A model generated the notes under the pieces. That model was not told where the DNA came from, searched no databases, and saw nothing but the letters and a program-made list of their open reading frames with translations. Position numbers and translations under genes: made by a program. This document shows, piece after piece, positions 30,472-52,429 of a DNA stretch of 64,000 nt; position 1 is the stretch's first letter; each line of letters starts with the position of its first letter. Where the stretch lies: positions 1 to 64,000 of the forward strand of contig NZ_JAQSDC010000038.1 of assembly GCF_029945705.1 (NCBI RefSeq), in the 5' to 3' direction. This stretch comes from Methylotenera sp. (GTDB lineage: Bacteria; Pseudomonadota; Gammaproteobacteria; Burkholderiales; Methylophilaceae).

Positions 30472-31884
<1,413 letters not shown>

Positions 31885-31961
31885 TTACCTTAGTCGAAGG
31901 TGCGTAAAAAGTTTTTATTTTGCACCAACTACTTTGGTTGTATATTTTTAGCTAAAAATAA

Positions 31962-32020
31962 ATACCTTCCCCTAAATAGGGGGTATGCAATTGAAATTAT
32001 TTTGTGTAAAGTTTTGTAAT
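31962..32020 (+). promoter_or_regulatory. Promoter with upstream dyad
   Basis: CCCCTA-AA-TAGGGG dyad inside ATACCTTCCCCTAAATAGGGGGTAT (31962-31986), followed by TTGAAA (31991-31996) and TGTAAT (32015-32020), 18-nt spacer. Confidence 0.5.
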
Positions 32021-32039
32021 GATTTTTAAGGGGATTTTA

Positions 32040-32423
32040 ATGACTAAATTAAAGTGTGCGGTTTTGGCTGTATTGGTTTTAGCAAGTGCTTCAGTAAAAG
32101 CAGATGGCGTAGGGATTTTTTTTGGTGTAGGTTATGCGTTTGGTAGCTCTGGTGGCCCAGGCGTTTCGTTTAAATTATTAAGCGATAGAGAAGAGCACAA
32201 AGCGGTGGTTGGTGCTGGTGTTTCTTACTATCCAATGTCCACGAATAAATTTGGTGCTGACATTAGTGCAGGCTACAACTTTAATAATTCCGCGATTACA
32301 GTGGGGTATGACTTCTTGCAGAGTGGTGTTGTGTTAGGCGCAGGCTATGTGAATACTAAGGATGATAATGGCGCCGCTGCACCAGTAGTGACGCCAACAC
32401 CTCCTCAGAACAACAATACGTAA
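32040..32423 (+). CDS. Small secreted Gly-rich protein of unknown function
   Basis: Signal peptide MTKLKCAVLAVLVLASASVKA; AAGGGGA RBS before the ATG at 32040. Confidence 0.65.
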   Translation: MTKLKCAVLAVLVLASASVKADGVGIFFGVGYAFGSSGGPGVSFKLLSDREEHKAVVGAGVSYYPMSTNKFGADISAGYNFNNSAITVGYDFLQSGVVLGAGYVNTKDDNGAAAPVVTPTPPQNNNT

Positions 32424-32442
32424 ATGTTTTTGCAGTATTAGA

Positions 32443-32478
32443 AAAAGGGTATGTAGTGATTTTACATACCCTTTTTTA
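32443..32478. terminator. Bidirectional terminator between convergent genes
   Basis: AAAAAGGGTATGTA-GTGATT-TTACATACCCTTTTTT. Confidence 0.9.
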
Positions 32479-32479
32479 A

Positions 32480-33940
32480 TTAATGAGTGAGCATATCCAC
32501 AAACTCATTCACTGAGGTTGCTTCCAACTTAGCTTGGTCTAAGCAAAGCGTTAAAATATCCGCTTGTTTTTTAACATCAAAACGGCGTGCTAAGTTCACT
32601 TGGAATTTTTTCACGAGCTCTGGAATGCCCTGACCGCGGCGGCGGCGATGACCGATTGGGTACTCCACGGCGATATTGTCTGAGCTTGTATGATCTTTAA
32701 AGAACACTTGAATCGCGTTGGCAATTGAGCGTTTTTCTGGGTTTAGATAATCAGCCGTGTATTCTGCTTTTTCTACACATACCATTTTTGCTCGGATTGC
32801 ATCAATGCGAGGGTCTGCCGCTGCTGCATCTTCATAATCTTGGGCGGTTAAGTTGCCTTTTAGTAAACCAATGGCAGACATGTATTGAATACAGTGGTCA
32901 CGATCCGCGGGGTTATCTAATGGGCCAGTTTTATCGATGATGCGAATCGCTGATTCGTGTGTTGTGATCACGATTTTATCAATTTGCGTGATTTGTTCTA
33001 ATGATTGAATTTCTCTGCCCACTTGGGCATGTAATTGAATTGCACACTCCACAGCGGTTTGCGCATGGAATTCAGCGGGGAACGAGATTTTGAATAATAC
33101 TTGTTCCATGACATAAGAGCCGTAACTGCGTTGGAATTTGAAGGCATTGCCTTTAAATAGTACGTCGTAGAAACCCCATGTTTTGGCTGTAAGTGCCGAT
33201 GGATAGCCCATTTCACCTTGCATAGTCATCCACGCAAGCCTCACCGCACGAGAGGTAGCATCACCTGCCGCCCATGATTTACGTGAGCCTGTATTTGGTG
33301 AGTGGCGATAGGTGCGTAAGCTTTGGCCATCTACAAATGCGTTAGAAACTGCGTTGATGATGTCTTCTTTATTGCCACCTAAAAGCTTTGTCACTACCGC
33401 TGTTGAGGCGATTTTTACTAAAATCACGTGGTCTAAACCCACACGGTTAAAGCTGTTTTCTAGCGCTAATACGCCTTGAATTTCATGTGCCTTAATCATC
33501 GCTGTCAGCACGTCTTTAATGGTGAGTGCATTTTTGCCTTCAGCCACATTCTTACGAGAAATATAATCAGCCGTTGCCAAAATGCCGCCTAAGTTATCTG
33601 ATGGGTGACCCCACTCAGCTGCTAGCCATGTGTCGTTAAAGTCTAACCAGCGTATCATCGCGCCGATGTTGAAGGCGGCTAAAATTGGGTCTAGCTGAAA
33701 AGAAGTGCCAGGTACTTTTGCGCCGTTTGGCACGACAGTGCCAGCAATGACTGGGCCTAATAATTTGGTGCAAGCTGGGTAATCTAAAGCTTCAAAACCG
33801 CAACCTAGTGTATCCATCAAACAGTTGCGTGCAGTGTCGAAGGCTTCGTCGGATTTGATTTCGTAATCAGCCACATAATTGGCTATATCGACAATCACTT
33901 GGTCCGGAGCGGGGCGTACGTTAGAGATATGAGCGGACAT
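32480..33940 (-). CDS. prpD: MmgE/PrpD family protein, 2-methylcitrate dehydratase
   Basis: 486 aa; '[29 protein letters not shown]'; adjacent to prpC/prpB. Confidence 0.94.
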
Positions 33941-46512: not shown

Positions 46513-48144
46513 ATGCAAAAGTTAGAACAATTTCCTGAGTGGGAGTGGAACGTTCCAAAACACTTTAATATCGGCGCGGCATGTACTGATAAGCACTTGA
46601 ATACGCCAGCGGCATCATTGATTGCGATGATTGTTGAGGATGACGCTCAAGGCACTTCACAAATCACCTTTGAGCAATTAGCGAAACGTACTGATCAATT
46701 TGCTCAGTTACTCAGAAATTTGAATGTGGGTGCGGGTGAGCGCGTGTTGATTCGCTTACCTAACTGTTTGGATTATCCAACGGCGTTTTTAGGCGCGATG
46801 AAGCGCGGTGCGATTTCAGTGCCAACTTCAACCCTACTCACTGCTGAAGAAGTGGCTTATTTGGCAAAAGACTCAACAGCAACAGTGCTCGTTACAGATA
46901 AAGCTGCCTGGCCTTCATTGCAAGATCATTTAACAGGTTTGCCAAATTTAAAACATGTGTTTTTGTCAGGCATTGGCGAAGTAGCGCCACATGCAAGCTT
47001 AAATGTTTGCGATTTAGACGCGCAACTTTCTGCAATTCAGACGTGTGAACCAGCACATTTAACAGCTTCTGATGACCCCGCCTATTTGGTGTACACCTCA
47101 GGAACAACAGGTTATCCAAAAGGCGTGCTACATGCGCACCGCGCGTTGATTGGCCGCGAACCAGCCTCTAAATACTGGTTTAATTTTGATGCAAACTCGC
47201 AAGACCGTATCATGCACTCAGGCAAGTTCAATTGGACTTATGTGTTAGGTTCAGGCTTGATGGATCCGCTCTATTTGGGCAAAACCGTCATTGTGCATGA
47301 AGGCAAAAATGACGCTGATTTATGGACACGCTTGATTGCTAAACATTCAGCGACGATTTTTGTGGGCGTGCCAACCATTTATCGCCAAATCATTCAGAAA
47401 TCTACAGCTAAGCAAGTAGATGTAACAAGTTTGCGCCACTGCATGAGCGCGGGTGAGCATCTATCTGATGAAGTTTTGCAACAATGGCGCGAACGCTTTG
47501 GTGCGGATATTTACGAAGCAGTTGGCATGAGCGAATTTTCATACTACTTAAGCCAAAGCATATTCCGCCCGATACGTGCAGGTTCTGCAGGCTTTCCGCA
47601 GCCAGGACATGCCATTAAATTGCTGAATCCTGAAACCTTAGAAGAGGTTCCGCAAGGCGAAGAGGGCATGATTAGCGTGCTAGATAGCGACCCAGGCTTG
47701 TTCTTGCGTTACTGGAATTTAGACGAAGAAACAGCCAAATACAAACATGATGGTTGGTTCTTCTCTGGCGACTATGCCCGTTATGATGAAGATGGCTATA
47801 TCTGGTTCTTAGGTCGTAAAGACGACATTATTAAAAGCTTTGGTTATCGTGTTTCACCTTACGAGATAGAACGCGTGTATAAAGGCCACCCCGATGTAGC
47901 AGATTGCGCAGCGATAGGCGAAGAATTAGAAAAAGATAAATTGCTAGTGGTGATTTACGTGATTTTAAAACCAGAAGCCAGCGCTAACCCAGATGATTTA
48001 TTGGCTTTTGGTAAGCAACATTTGGCCGCCTACAAAGCGCCCAAAACAGTGTACTTTGCACAGGATTTTCCACGCACTAAAAATGGTAAAATTTTGCGTA
48101 AAGATATTCAGCCAAGCATGGCGGTTGCTAAGAGTTCACGCTAG
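46513..48144 (+). CDS. AMP-dependent acyl-CoA synthetase/ligase
   Basis: 'LVYTSGTTGYPKGVLHAHRA', 'GWFFSGDYARYDEDGYIWFLGRKDDIIKSFGYRVSPYEIE', 'PRTKNGKILRKDI'. Confidence 0.93.
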   Translation: MQKLEQFPEWEWNVPKHFNIGAACTDKHLNTPAASLIAMIVEDDAQGTSQITFEQLAKRTDQFAQLLRNLNVGAGERVLIRLPNCLDYPTAFLGAMKRGAISVPTSTLLTAEEVAYLAKDSTATVLVTDKAAWPSLQDHLTGLPNLKHVFLSGIGEVAPHASLNVCDLDAQLSAIQTCEPAHLTASDDPAYLVYTSGTTGYPKGVLHAHRALIGREPASKYWFNFDANSQDRIMHSGKFNWTYVLGSGLMDPLYLGKTVIVHEGKNDADLWTRLIAKHSATIFVGVPTIYRQIIQKSTAKQVDVTSLRHCMSAGEHLSDEVLQQWRERFGADIYEAVGMSEFSYYLSQSIFRPIRAGSAGFPQPGHAIKLLNPETLEEVPQGEEGMISVLDSDPGLFLRYWNLDEETAKYKHDGWFFSGDYARYDEDGYIWFLGRKDDIIKSFGYRVSPYEIERVYKGHPDVADCAAIGEELEKDKLLVVIYVILKPEASANPDDLLAFGKQHLAAYKAPKTVYFAQDFPRTKNGKILRKDIQPSMAVAKSSR

Positions 48145-48175
48145 ATTATTCTGACATGGGCACAGCTATCAATAA

Positions 48176-48202
48176 CCGTTCGCTCTGAGCTTTGTCGAAG
48201 AG
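48176..48202. repeat. Intergenic repeat-like sequence CCGTTCGCTCTGAGCTTTGTCGAAGAG
   Basis: Resembles the widespread CGTTCGCCCTGAGCCTGTCGAAGGG intergenic palindromic repeat; recognised from memory, not searched. Confidence 0.5.
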
Positions 48203-48246
48203 TATTTATAGTGAATTTAGCACAACATTATTTGACCACCTCTGGA

Positions 48247-48327
48247 AGCCGCCTAGAATGCGGCTCCCAGCCCGATTATTTTTGCTCGGGAGTTTTATGA
48301 GGATGCCGTGTGGGTTACAAGTAACCC
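48247..48327. repeat. Cluster of three short hairpins, possible transposon/REP scar
   Basis: AGCCGC-CTAGAAT-GCGGCT (48247-48265), CCCGA-N10-TCGGG (48271-48290), GGGTTAC-AA-GTAACCC (48312-48327); followed by AATGGAGTCTGACC. Confidence 0.5.
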
Positions 48328-48416
48328 CTACTTGGTTCTATCAATGGAGTCTGACCTTATTGATTCCTATGATTTATTGTTGTAAGTCTGACAGTTGCAA
48401 GGAAAGAATAATACAA

Positions 48417-50734
48417 ATGAAATTAAAACTATTCGCTTTGCTGCTTAGCTTAGTAAGTTTGTCTACGAATTGCTATGCTGATAATTACACTGATGAGTTT
48501 TGTGTCGTGCCAATAAAAAATGTACCTTCATACGACGATAGCTTATTTACTTCTCGTTTAGTTGAAGATAGATGGCAGCTATCAGGTATTGAACAGCCAC
48601 TTTATGTCAATAGTTTGAATCAACAAGCAACTTATTTTGGCACTTGGACAATCAATAAAGATCGTGAGTTTGTACCATATAACCACCCTGCACCTACTCA
48701 CCCATGGGATGAATATATTGAAGAGCCTTGGAGCGGCAGAGTTGTGTTCAATCGAAATGCTGCTAAGAAGCAACTATTAGCATTAGAGCAGGGACAAACA
48801 TTGTTTAAGGCACTTGATCAGAGCAAACTCAAAGGTCGAACTTTTTTTAAAAGCCTTGCTACGCTATCTATCGCTCAAGAAACCATTGTTTTCACACAAG
48901 CTGGCATACCTTATCAAGTAGGAAAAGACTCATTAAAACCATGGCCAACATATCAAAAAATTAGGCAACAGGGTGTTAGCTTTAAAAAATTAGGTTATGG
49001 TGGTCGAGAGCCTATCTATGATGCACCAGCACTTGGTGGCTTTATTGTTGCCAGTGATACCAGTGAGTTATTTTTATATAGTGATAACAAGCTTGAAAAA
49101 ATCAAAATTGGCACAAAAGACGGAATCCAAAAAGCAGTTAATTTGATCGATCAGAAAATGTTTGTATTTGTCACTTCTGATGAGTTAATTCATGTCGTAC
49201 AACGTTCTGATGAGGGGCAGATTAACGTTAGAAGTTATACTCTTAGTGTAAAGTCAGGCTATATATACTTAAAAAATATAGGACAATTCATTTGGTATGA
49301 TGCCTCCATATCACGCTGGGTAAGATTAACCCGTAAAGGCTTTGAACCTATCCCTATTCAAAGCGATGTATCCATACCTCAGTCAGCTACCATCACAGAA
49401 ATGCCACATTTGAATATGGCTTTGTTAGATACACGCAATGCAATATTTCAATATGATGGTATTAAATTCATCAAGATATTGACCTATCCTAATCCCCAGC
49501 AGTATTACAGTAAAGTATTTCCGTTACCATCAATCGAAAAAGCTCTATTGCTAACGCATGATAATCGGTTGTATTCTTTTGATAAAAACAAGCCTCTTAC
49601 CGAAGTTAAAACGACAGTAGATTTATCGAGTTTTCAAACATCTATTATTGATTGGCCTAATGCTAAATCAGCTTTGCTTCTAAATGACTCTGGGATTTAT
49701 ACGGTTGATAAAAACCTAGCTACCAAAAGGATTCATGGCGGCGATACGTTTACGAGTAATTTTTCAAATGCAGAGCATATTGGTCACAATAATGTTACTG
49801 GTGAACTCTATTTGAGCAATAGGCGGGGTTTCTTTGCGGTGGTTGATAAGAAGGTATCGGGTCATGCTGTCTGTGATTATTACGATGTAATGAACTCTAA
49901 AATACCCAAAGTTCAACTCTGTATTAATCCCATTAAACAATCAAAAATAAAGGATATAGGCCTATTACTTAGTGAAGGCAAACCCTCGTCGAATGGAGAC
50001 GGAGTCTTTTTTGATGCTGTAAAAGGTGTTCACTACGTAGACCAGAGTAATACCATCCTCAATATTGATCCACAGAATGATGGTTCACAGGCATCTGATG
50101 AGGGTTTTGTGCCGATATGGTGGATGACAGGGGCTAAAATTCACATTGAATGGGATGAACTTAAAAGAATTTTTAATAAGCCATCCAAACCTTCAGAGCT
50201 AGAGAGGATAAAACTGTTTGATGGTCAATTTGAAGCTTCTAAAAAAATATTGACCGCATCTATCTTTGATGTAAATGACAAAACAACAGTAGTGGCTACA
50301 ACTGATGGTGCATATATAAAAAAACCACGGGCGCCCCTCAAAAGCTTGCTGGCGATAATCTAGTTCTTAATTATAACGACAGGGGCACTCAAATACTGGC
50401 CAGACATCCAAACGGTGATGATGTTGTTTTGGGCAATGGTATAGGTTTGTTTTTTATTGATGTGCAAAAAAGAACGATCAAACTGATCACAGATGACGCC
50501 TATGAATTAATGGGTTCAATATTTCGTATTCAAAATATCGATAAGTCTAAAAAGTTATTGATTACAGCTTCAAATGGAGACTTCTTAATAGATGAAAACA
50601 ATCATGTTGCCAAAATAACTAATATTGCAGGATTCAAAACAGTTAATGTGTATCTTGGTGGAACAAAAATTTTTGCTACCAAGAAAACTGATAAAGATGA
50701 GCAAATATACGAGTTGAAATTAAATTGTAAGTAA
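48417..50734 (+). pseudogene. Secreted protein of unknown function, split by a frameshift at A7 (50318-50324)
   Basis: Signal peptide MKLKLFALLLSLVSLSTNCYA at ATG 48417 with GGAAAG RBS. Frame 0 stops at 50363; the -1 frame is open from the A7 tract through ORF 50429-50734. Confidence 0.7.
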
Positions 50735-50748
50735 ATGCGGCGGATTAA

Positions 50749-50820
50749 ACTACGAAGTGCGACACCCTGATTATTAAAGAATACCTCATTTGGGGTTAAC
50801 CAGCCAAGGCACTTTCTATA
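50749..50820 (-). mobile_element. IS30-family transposase C-terminal remnant
   Basis: Minus-strand translation YRKCLGWLTPNEVFFNNQGVALRS matches the typical IS30-family C-terminus (RPRKxLGxxTPNEVF). Confidence 0.68.
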
Positions 50821-50899
50821 GAGCAAATGTAGTCTCCATTGATTTTCACCCCACTGGTTCAAATTAAGCAACTAAAACACAGATAAAACAAAGAAATTT

Positions 50900-52429
50900 A
50901 TGACCACCATTAAACAAACTGACTTCATTCAAAGCATTAAAGATGCCTTGCAATATATTTCTTATTATCACCCTGTAGATTATATTCAGGCCTTGGGCCG
51001 CGCTTACGAGGCAGAGCAATCACCCGCGGCTAAAGATGCTATTGCGCAGATTTTAACTAACTCTCGTATGTGTGCGGAAGGTAAGCGCCCACTTTGCCAA
51101 GATACTGGCATTGTTGTTGCTTTCGTTAAAGTAGGCATGAACGTGCAGTGGGATGCAACGCTTGATGTTGAGCAAATGGTGAACGAAGGTGTGCACCGTG
51201 CATATATGTTGCCAGAGAATAAATTGCGCGCTTCTATTGTGAGGGACCCCGCTGGAAAGCGCGCCAATACTAAGGATAATACGCCAGCTGTGGTGCATGT
51301 TTCATTGGTTGCTGGTGATAAAGTTGATGTGCAAATTGCAGCAAAAGGTGGCGGTTCTGAGAACAAAGCTAAGTTGGCAATGCTCAACCCGAATGACAGT
51401 ATTGTGGATTGGATTTTGGAAGTTGTGCCCCAAATGGGTGCAGGCTGGTGTCCACCGGGCATGTTAGGCATCGGAATCGGCGGTAGCGCAGAAAAGGCCA
51501 TGTTGTTAGCGAAAGAATCTTTGATGGCGCCGATTGATATGCACGAACTTAAAGCTAGTGGTGCTAAAAACAGAATTGAGGAATTGCGCTTAGAGATTTT
51601 TGAAAAAGTGAATAATTTAGGCATAGGAGCGCAAGGTTTAGGTGGTTTAGCAACAGTATTGGATGTGAAGATTTTAGATTACCCAACGCACGCGGCTAGC
51701 TTGCCAGTGGCGATTATTCCAAACTGTGCAGCTACACGCCATGTGCATTTTGAGTTGGATGGTAGTGGTGCAGCAGAGTTGGAAGTGCCTAATTTAAACG
51801 ACTGGCCAAATGTGCATTGGGCACCAAGTGAAGCATCGTTAAGAGTAGATTTAGACGCAATAACCCAAGCCGATATTCAGACTTGGAAGCCAGGTCAGAC
51901 TTTGTTGTTAAACGGAAAATTGCTTACAGGCAGAGATGCTGCGCATAAGCGCATTGCCACGATGTTAGCTAACGGTGAGAAATTGCCAGTAGATTTTAAA
52001 AACCGTTTTATTTATTACGTCGGCCCTGTAGATGCAGTGCGTGATGAAGCCGTTGGACCAGCAGGCCCAACCACGGCAACGCGTATGGATGGTTTTACAG
52101 AAATGATGCTTAATGAAGTTGGTTTGCTGGGGATGGTGGGTAAAGCTGAGCGTGGCGATGAAACAATTGCGTCAATCGCCAAATATAAATCAGTGTATTT
52201 GACAGCTGTAGGCGGCGCGGCTTATTTGGTGAGCAAGGCCATTAAAAAAGCCGAAGTGCTGGCGTTTGCAGATTTGGGTATGGAAGCGATTTATGAGTTC
52301 ACGGTGCAAGATATGCCGGTGACGGTGGCCGTGGATAGCCAAGGTAATTCAGTACACACCACTGGCCCTGCTGAGTGGAAAGAAAAGATTGCGCAGCATA
52401 AAACGATAGAAATTCACTCTGTGCCTTAA
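50900..52429 (+). CDS. fumA: Class I fumarate hydratase (4Fe-4S type)
   Basis: 'RPLCQDTGIVVAFVKVGMNV', 'AAKGGGSENKAKLAMLNPNDS', 'GWCPPGMLGIGIGG', 'YYVGPVDAVRDEAVGPAGPTTATRMD'. Confidence 0.95.
   Translation: MTTIKQTDFIQSIKDALQYISYYHPVDYIQALGRAYEAEQSPAAKDAIAQILTNSRMCAEGKRPLCQDTGIVVAFVKVGMNVQWDATLDVEQMVNEGVHRAYMLPENKLRASIVRDPAGKRANTKDNTPAVVHVSLVAGDKVDVQIAAKGGGSENKAKLAMLNPNDSIVDWILEVVPQMGAGWCPPGMLGIGIGGSAEKAMLLAKESLMAPIDMHELKASGAKNRIEELRLEIFEKVNNLGIGAQGLGGLATVLDVKILDYPTHAASLPVAIIPNCAATRHVHFELDGSGAAELEVPNLNDWPNVHWAPSEASLRVDLDAITQADIQTWKPGQTLLLNGKLLTGRDAAHKRIATMLANGEKLPVDFKNRFIYYVGPVDAVRDEAVGPAGPTTATRMDGFTEMMLNEVGLLGMVGKAERGDETIASIAKYKSVYLTAVGGAAYLVSKAIKKAEVLAFADLGMEAIYEFTVQDMPVTVAVDSQGNSVHTTGPAEWKEKIAQHKTIEIHSVP

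Follow-up and report, generated by a model that had tools for sequence, protein, structure and literature searches.

In dnaX and in IS3-type elements, -1 ribosomal frameshifting takes place at A_AAA_AAG or A_AAA_AAA heptamers accompanied by stimulators, and A_AAA_AAA is used together with a stem-loop in proven insertion sequence (IS) cases (PMC4066793). Efficient transcriptional slippage in bacteria has been documented at runs of about nine A or T (PMC5009743), and the GeneTack survey assigned frameshifted genes that are singletons and have no conserved site to errors or recent indels (PMC3711429). Here, we analyzed a gene for a probable secreted protein that is broken at an in-phase A_AAA_AAA in a 64,000-nucleotide stretch of a Methylotenera sp. 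genome, hereafter the window (Table 1). The reading we favor, with a probability of roughly 0.55, is a real and recent loss of a single base from a homopolymer in a dispensable foreign gene, by which the second of two domains was truncated.

Read from the ATG at 48417, frame 0 crosses the junction as GCA TAT ATA AAA AAA CCA CGG, with ATA AAA AAA at 50316-50324, and its stop codon occupies 50361-50363. The -1 frame is preceded by a TGA at 50303-50305 and ends with a TAA at 50732-50734, giving 138 codons counted from the tract. Since this TGA closes the -1 frame upstream, a single shift joining the two frames is confined to 50306-50360 (~55 nt), in which the A7 is the sole homopolymer of six or more. 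Past the tract, codon usage per codon scored +0.141 in the -1 frame, compared to -0.395 in frame 0 and -0.856 in the third frame; upstream, frame 0 scored +0.099. The short tail (50325..50363) that is added if frame 0 is kept scored -0.19 in frame 0 and +0.34 in the -1 frame. An extension of this length was open in 0 of 5,000 dinucleotide shuffles, so its openness is not due to chance. Together, the coding scores and the shuffles identify both halves as parts of one ancestral gene: the frame-0 ORF and the -1 extension are a single ancestral ORF of ~772 aa. As expected of a pseudogene, this ORF is interrupted and its remainder is still coding; besides the frame break, no further lesion was found, and the break is therefore either very recent or not real.

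Table 1. Features of the broken gene and of the insertion around it, in window coordinates
Feature	Coordinates	Strand	Description
Frame-0 ORF	48417..50363	+	648 aa; MKLKLFALLLSLVSLSTNCYA read by eye as a probable Sec signal peptide; contains domain A (C29...C486) and the beginning of domain B (C502)
A7 tract where the frames meet, an in-phase A_AAA_AAA	50318..50324	+	Read from sequence
-1 frame, open from stop to stop	50306..50734	+	Encodes the remainder of domain B, up to ...YELKLNCK*, which holds the Cys presumed to close the domain
Out-of-frame tail PRAPLKSLLAII*	50325..50363	+	Added if frame 0 is kept
Window-specific insertion	48145..50899	+	Flanked by genes for acyl-CoA synthetase (46513-48144) and fumarate hydratase (50900-52429); not present in relatives at the collinear position
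Possible C-terminal remnant of an IS30-type transposase, RKCLGWLTPNEVFFNNQGVALR	50740..50815	-	Open stretch in the right part of the insertion; translation

The broken gene is the sole gene of a 2.75-kb, AT-rich insertion. At most of the Methylophilaceae loci examined, 0-40 nt separate the gene for acyl-CoA synthetase from that for fumarase. A complete relative (G012) is collinear with nearly the whole window at ~85% identity; its aligned ends are 73 nt apart at this site, compared to 2.8 kb in the window. The neighboring acyl-CoA synthetase shares 82-92% identity with several named Methylotenera loci, which places the organism in Methylotenera or very near it. The gene itself is AT-richer (33-39% GC vs. 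about 44-46%), and its codon usage falls at the low end. Searches of 150 related genomes, of 369 genomes from the class (with the protein and again with a profile), of phages, and of viral contigs gave no homologue; two weak matches in the class were set aside as chance, one lying beside pilin-like ORFs and the other against opposite-strand ORFs. A horizontally acquired, dispensable orphan is the best explanation for the gene. The open stretch at 50740-50815, which we take to resemble the C terminus of an IS30-type transposase and to be a possible remnant of one, gave no match in HMM and tblastn searches. No target-site duplication was found at the edges of the insertion, where the longest shared word was 8 nt, and an Rfam search of the insertion returned no match.

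Several side observations were made. The left part of the insertion holds a REP-like pair of GC-rich hairpins (palindrome; 48238-48300), of which the part at 48238-48278 has an 83% copy elsewhere in the same genome (contig C47:53966-54006). Another Methylotenera has an additional, unrelated ORF with an apparent signal peptide at the same junction (L008 8629-9155, a 526-nt gap), and the acyl-CoA synthetase/fumarase junction may accept insertions repeatedly. At 31842-32492, the window is ~4.4 kb shorter than G012 (0.65 kb between aligned ends vs. 5 kb in G012).

Neither part of the protein matched a family in Pfam, NCBIfam, or PHROGs, and a PDB sequence search gave no significant match. The only relatives found, all of them hypothetical and 356-415 aa long, are encoded on Rhizobium plasmids and in a single further genome of the phylum. 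A signal peptide is visible in some of them, and they align with residues 1-492 of the window protein at ~22-24% identity. A four-sequence alignment has 33 invariant columns, among them C29, which lies close to where the mature protein begins, and C486, close to the domain end. The relatives have a Cys close to the N terminus (CLxPV) and another (SCLx*) that precedes the C-terminal residue by two positions. The conserved N-terminal motif and the terminal Cys over the domain length, by which this Rhizobium-type secreted family is recognized, are both present in the window protein, which is probably secreted as well. The copy on the plasmid of Rhizobium sp. 32-5/1 (L142 1379-2282) is broken into several frames, at places other than those in the window gene, and this independent breakage fits a dispensable family.

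In the read-through product, Cys residues of the mature protein stand at 29, 486, 502, and 771. Of the 280 residues left, most lie between C502 and C771; the latter, the penultimate residue, is encoded in the -1 frame. This arrangement suggests that the read-through protein is a tandem of two disulfide-closed domains, with putative disulfides in both. Since C771 is encoded only past the shift, truncation leaves C502 without a partner. The two halves are only marginally similar in sequence (hhalign: E ~0.01-0.03, probability <5%), and a single-sequence AlphaFold2 model was uninformative (pLDDT 33). The domains are probably beta-rich; a beta-propeller is no more than an impression gained from repeated strand-turn motifs.

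How, then, might the gene have come to be broken? Under the preferred account, a horizontally acquired gene for a ~772-aa, probably secreted protein would recently have lost one A by replication slippage. Ribosomes would now stop at 50363 and yield a 648-aa product in which the first domain, the counterpart of the whole Rhizobium relatives, would be complete and the second unfinished, with an unpaired Cys. The function of the second domain would thereby have been lost. Spontaneous low-level -1 slippage on A_AAA_AAA may still give a trace of full-length protein, as a by-product of the lesion and not as a program. A base loss is the probable direction of the mutation; no close homologue was found that would show the ancestral tract length.

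The main rival to a real deletion is a sequencing or assembly error, by which the recorded tract length would be wrong and the gene an intact 772-codon ORF. We regard this as rather unlikely, though it deserves serious weight: the lesion is a solitary homopolymer indel in an otherwise open gene, as such errors typically are, the assembly is a draft in 60 contigs, and it counts further for this reading that many public bacterial pseudogenes are technical in origin (PMC11017572). Against it, the intact coding sequences of the window contain 12 homopolymers of seven or more (7-8), and none of the window's syntenic genes shows a frame break relative to G012. The error rate was also gauged on sampled stretches of the same assembly. 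The 144 kb covered by homology contained a single frame break, which lay outside homopolymers; scanning 399 kb ab initio likewise gave one split-gene candidate, again outside homopolymers, although this is weak evidence, as the score cut-off also misses the window gene. Elsewhere in the same genome, a candidate split gene away from any homopolymer was noted on contig C35 (L120 1771-1816), the downstream frame of which has no start codon.

A functional switch at the A7, whether by ribosomal slippage or phase variation, would allow one gene to make one- and two-domain secreted forms, and a Cys found only past the shift would lock the second domain; we consider this improbable. Its first version, in which ribosomes shifting to -1 at A_AAA_AAA in a programmed manner (or slippage during transcription) would set a defined ratio of the two forms, appears quite improbable. 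A programmed -1 frameshift gene is marked by a slippery heptamer, a stimulator, and conservation of the site. The heptamer is present, is in the correct phase, and is the one used in the IS cases above, and a 6-bp GC stem (50333-50338 with 50380-50385) starts 8 nt past it. However, the RNA downstream was no more stable than its shuffles in pseudoknot-free folding (z from 0 to +1.5) and ranked only in the top 8-23% among windows of the same gene, so the stable stem that the sequence-only reading had proposed to look for past 50324 did not appear. Upstream anti-SD pairing was ordinary, with 30% of positions equal or better. No homologue carries the shift site, and the relatives found have no second domain. 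In E. coli, the best heptamers without a stimulator shift about 0.3% (PMC4066793), which further counts against a programmed shift. The tract had also been thought suited to transcriptional slippage; a run of seven falls short of the documented length of about nine (PMC5009743).

The phase of the heptamer is in itself unremarkable. Any run of seven A has the correct slippery phase one-third of the time, and the A_AAA_AAA motif follows automatically from a homopolymer deletion that falls in the matching phase. The coding sequences of the window hold two other in-frame A_AAA_AAA, both in intact genes, together with one A_AAA_AAG and ~100 X_XXY_YYZ. What the sequence-only reading had described of the anatomy stands, namely a secreted gene with an in-phase A7 at 50318-50324 at the junction, a frame-0 stop at 50363, and an intact -1 extension open to the TAA at 50734, all of which we read again in the sequence. 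Its programmed slippage has no support other than the heptamer, and the evidence favors the indel or pseudogene that it had named as the simplest alternative.

Phase variation, with the A tract as a contingency locus turning the second domain on and off, is very unlikely, and the least likely of these readings to account for the break: a homopolymer does lie within a probable surface or secreted protein gene and the frame beyond it is preserved, but tracts of 7-8 A or T also occur in ordinary coding sequences here, and A7 is short for a contingency tract. Separate initiation of the downstream part is unlikely and was rejected, as there is no start near 50363 and the earliest start codon of the -1 frame is the TTG at 50429.

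A functional site would represent an unusual case of -1 recoding, neither mobile nor dnaX, that controls the domain content of a secreted protein. If it is ordinary, the gene is another recently frameshifted foreign gene and carries a caution, in that any homopolymer indel that interrupts a gene in the matching phase should leave an in-phase slippery heptamer at the junction. With the hypothetical secreted proteins of Rhizobium plasmids (WP_326893462.1, L005 5890-7032), the window protein shares the N-terminal C-x-V-P-x-K-N, GxWTI, and the domain-closing Cys; those relatives are single-domain proteins (356-415 aa), whereas the window protein adds a second domain, broken by the frameshift. With dnaX and IS3-type frameshifting, the window gene has the in-phase A_AAA_AAA in common; unlike them, it has no significant downstream structure, distinctive SD-like stimulator, conservation, or IS ORFA-ORFB layout. 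It is closest to the singleton or orphan frameshifted genes of GeneTack (PMC3711429), with which it shares a single poly-A frame transition in the 3' part of the gene, a site that is not conserved, and no cluster of homologous frameshifted genes. Unlike those singletons, the window gene has a distant family recognizable for its first domain and sits in a defined recent insertion.
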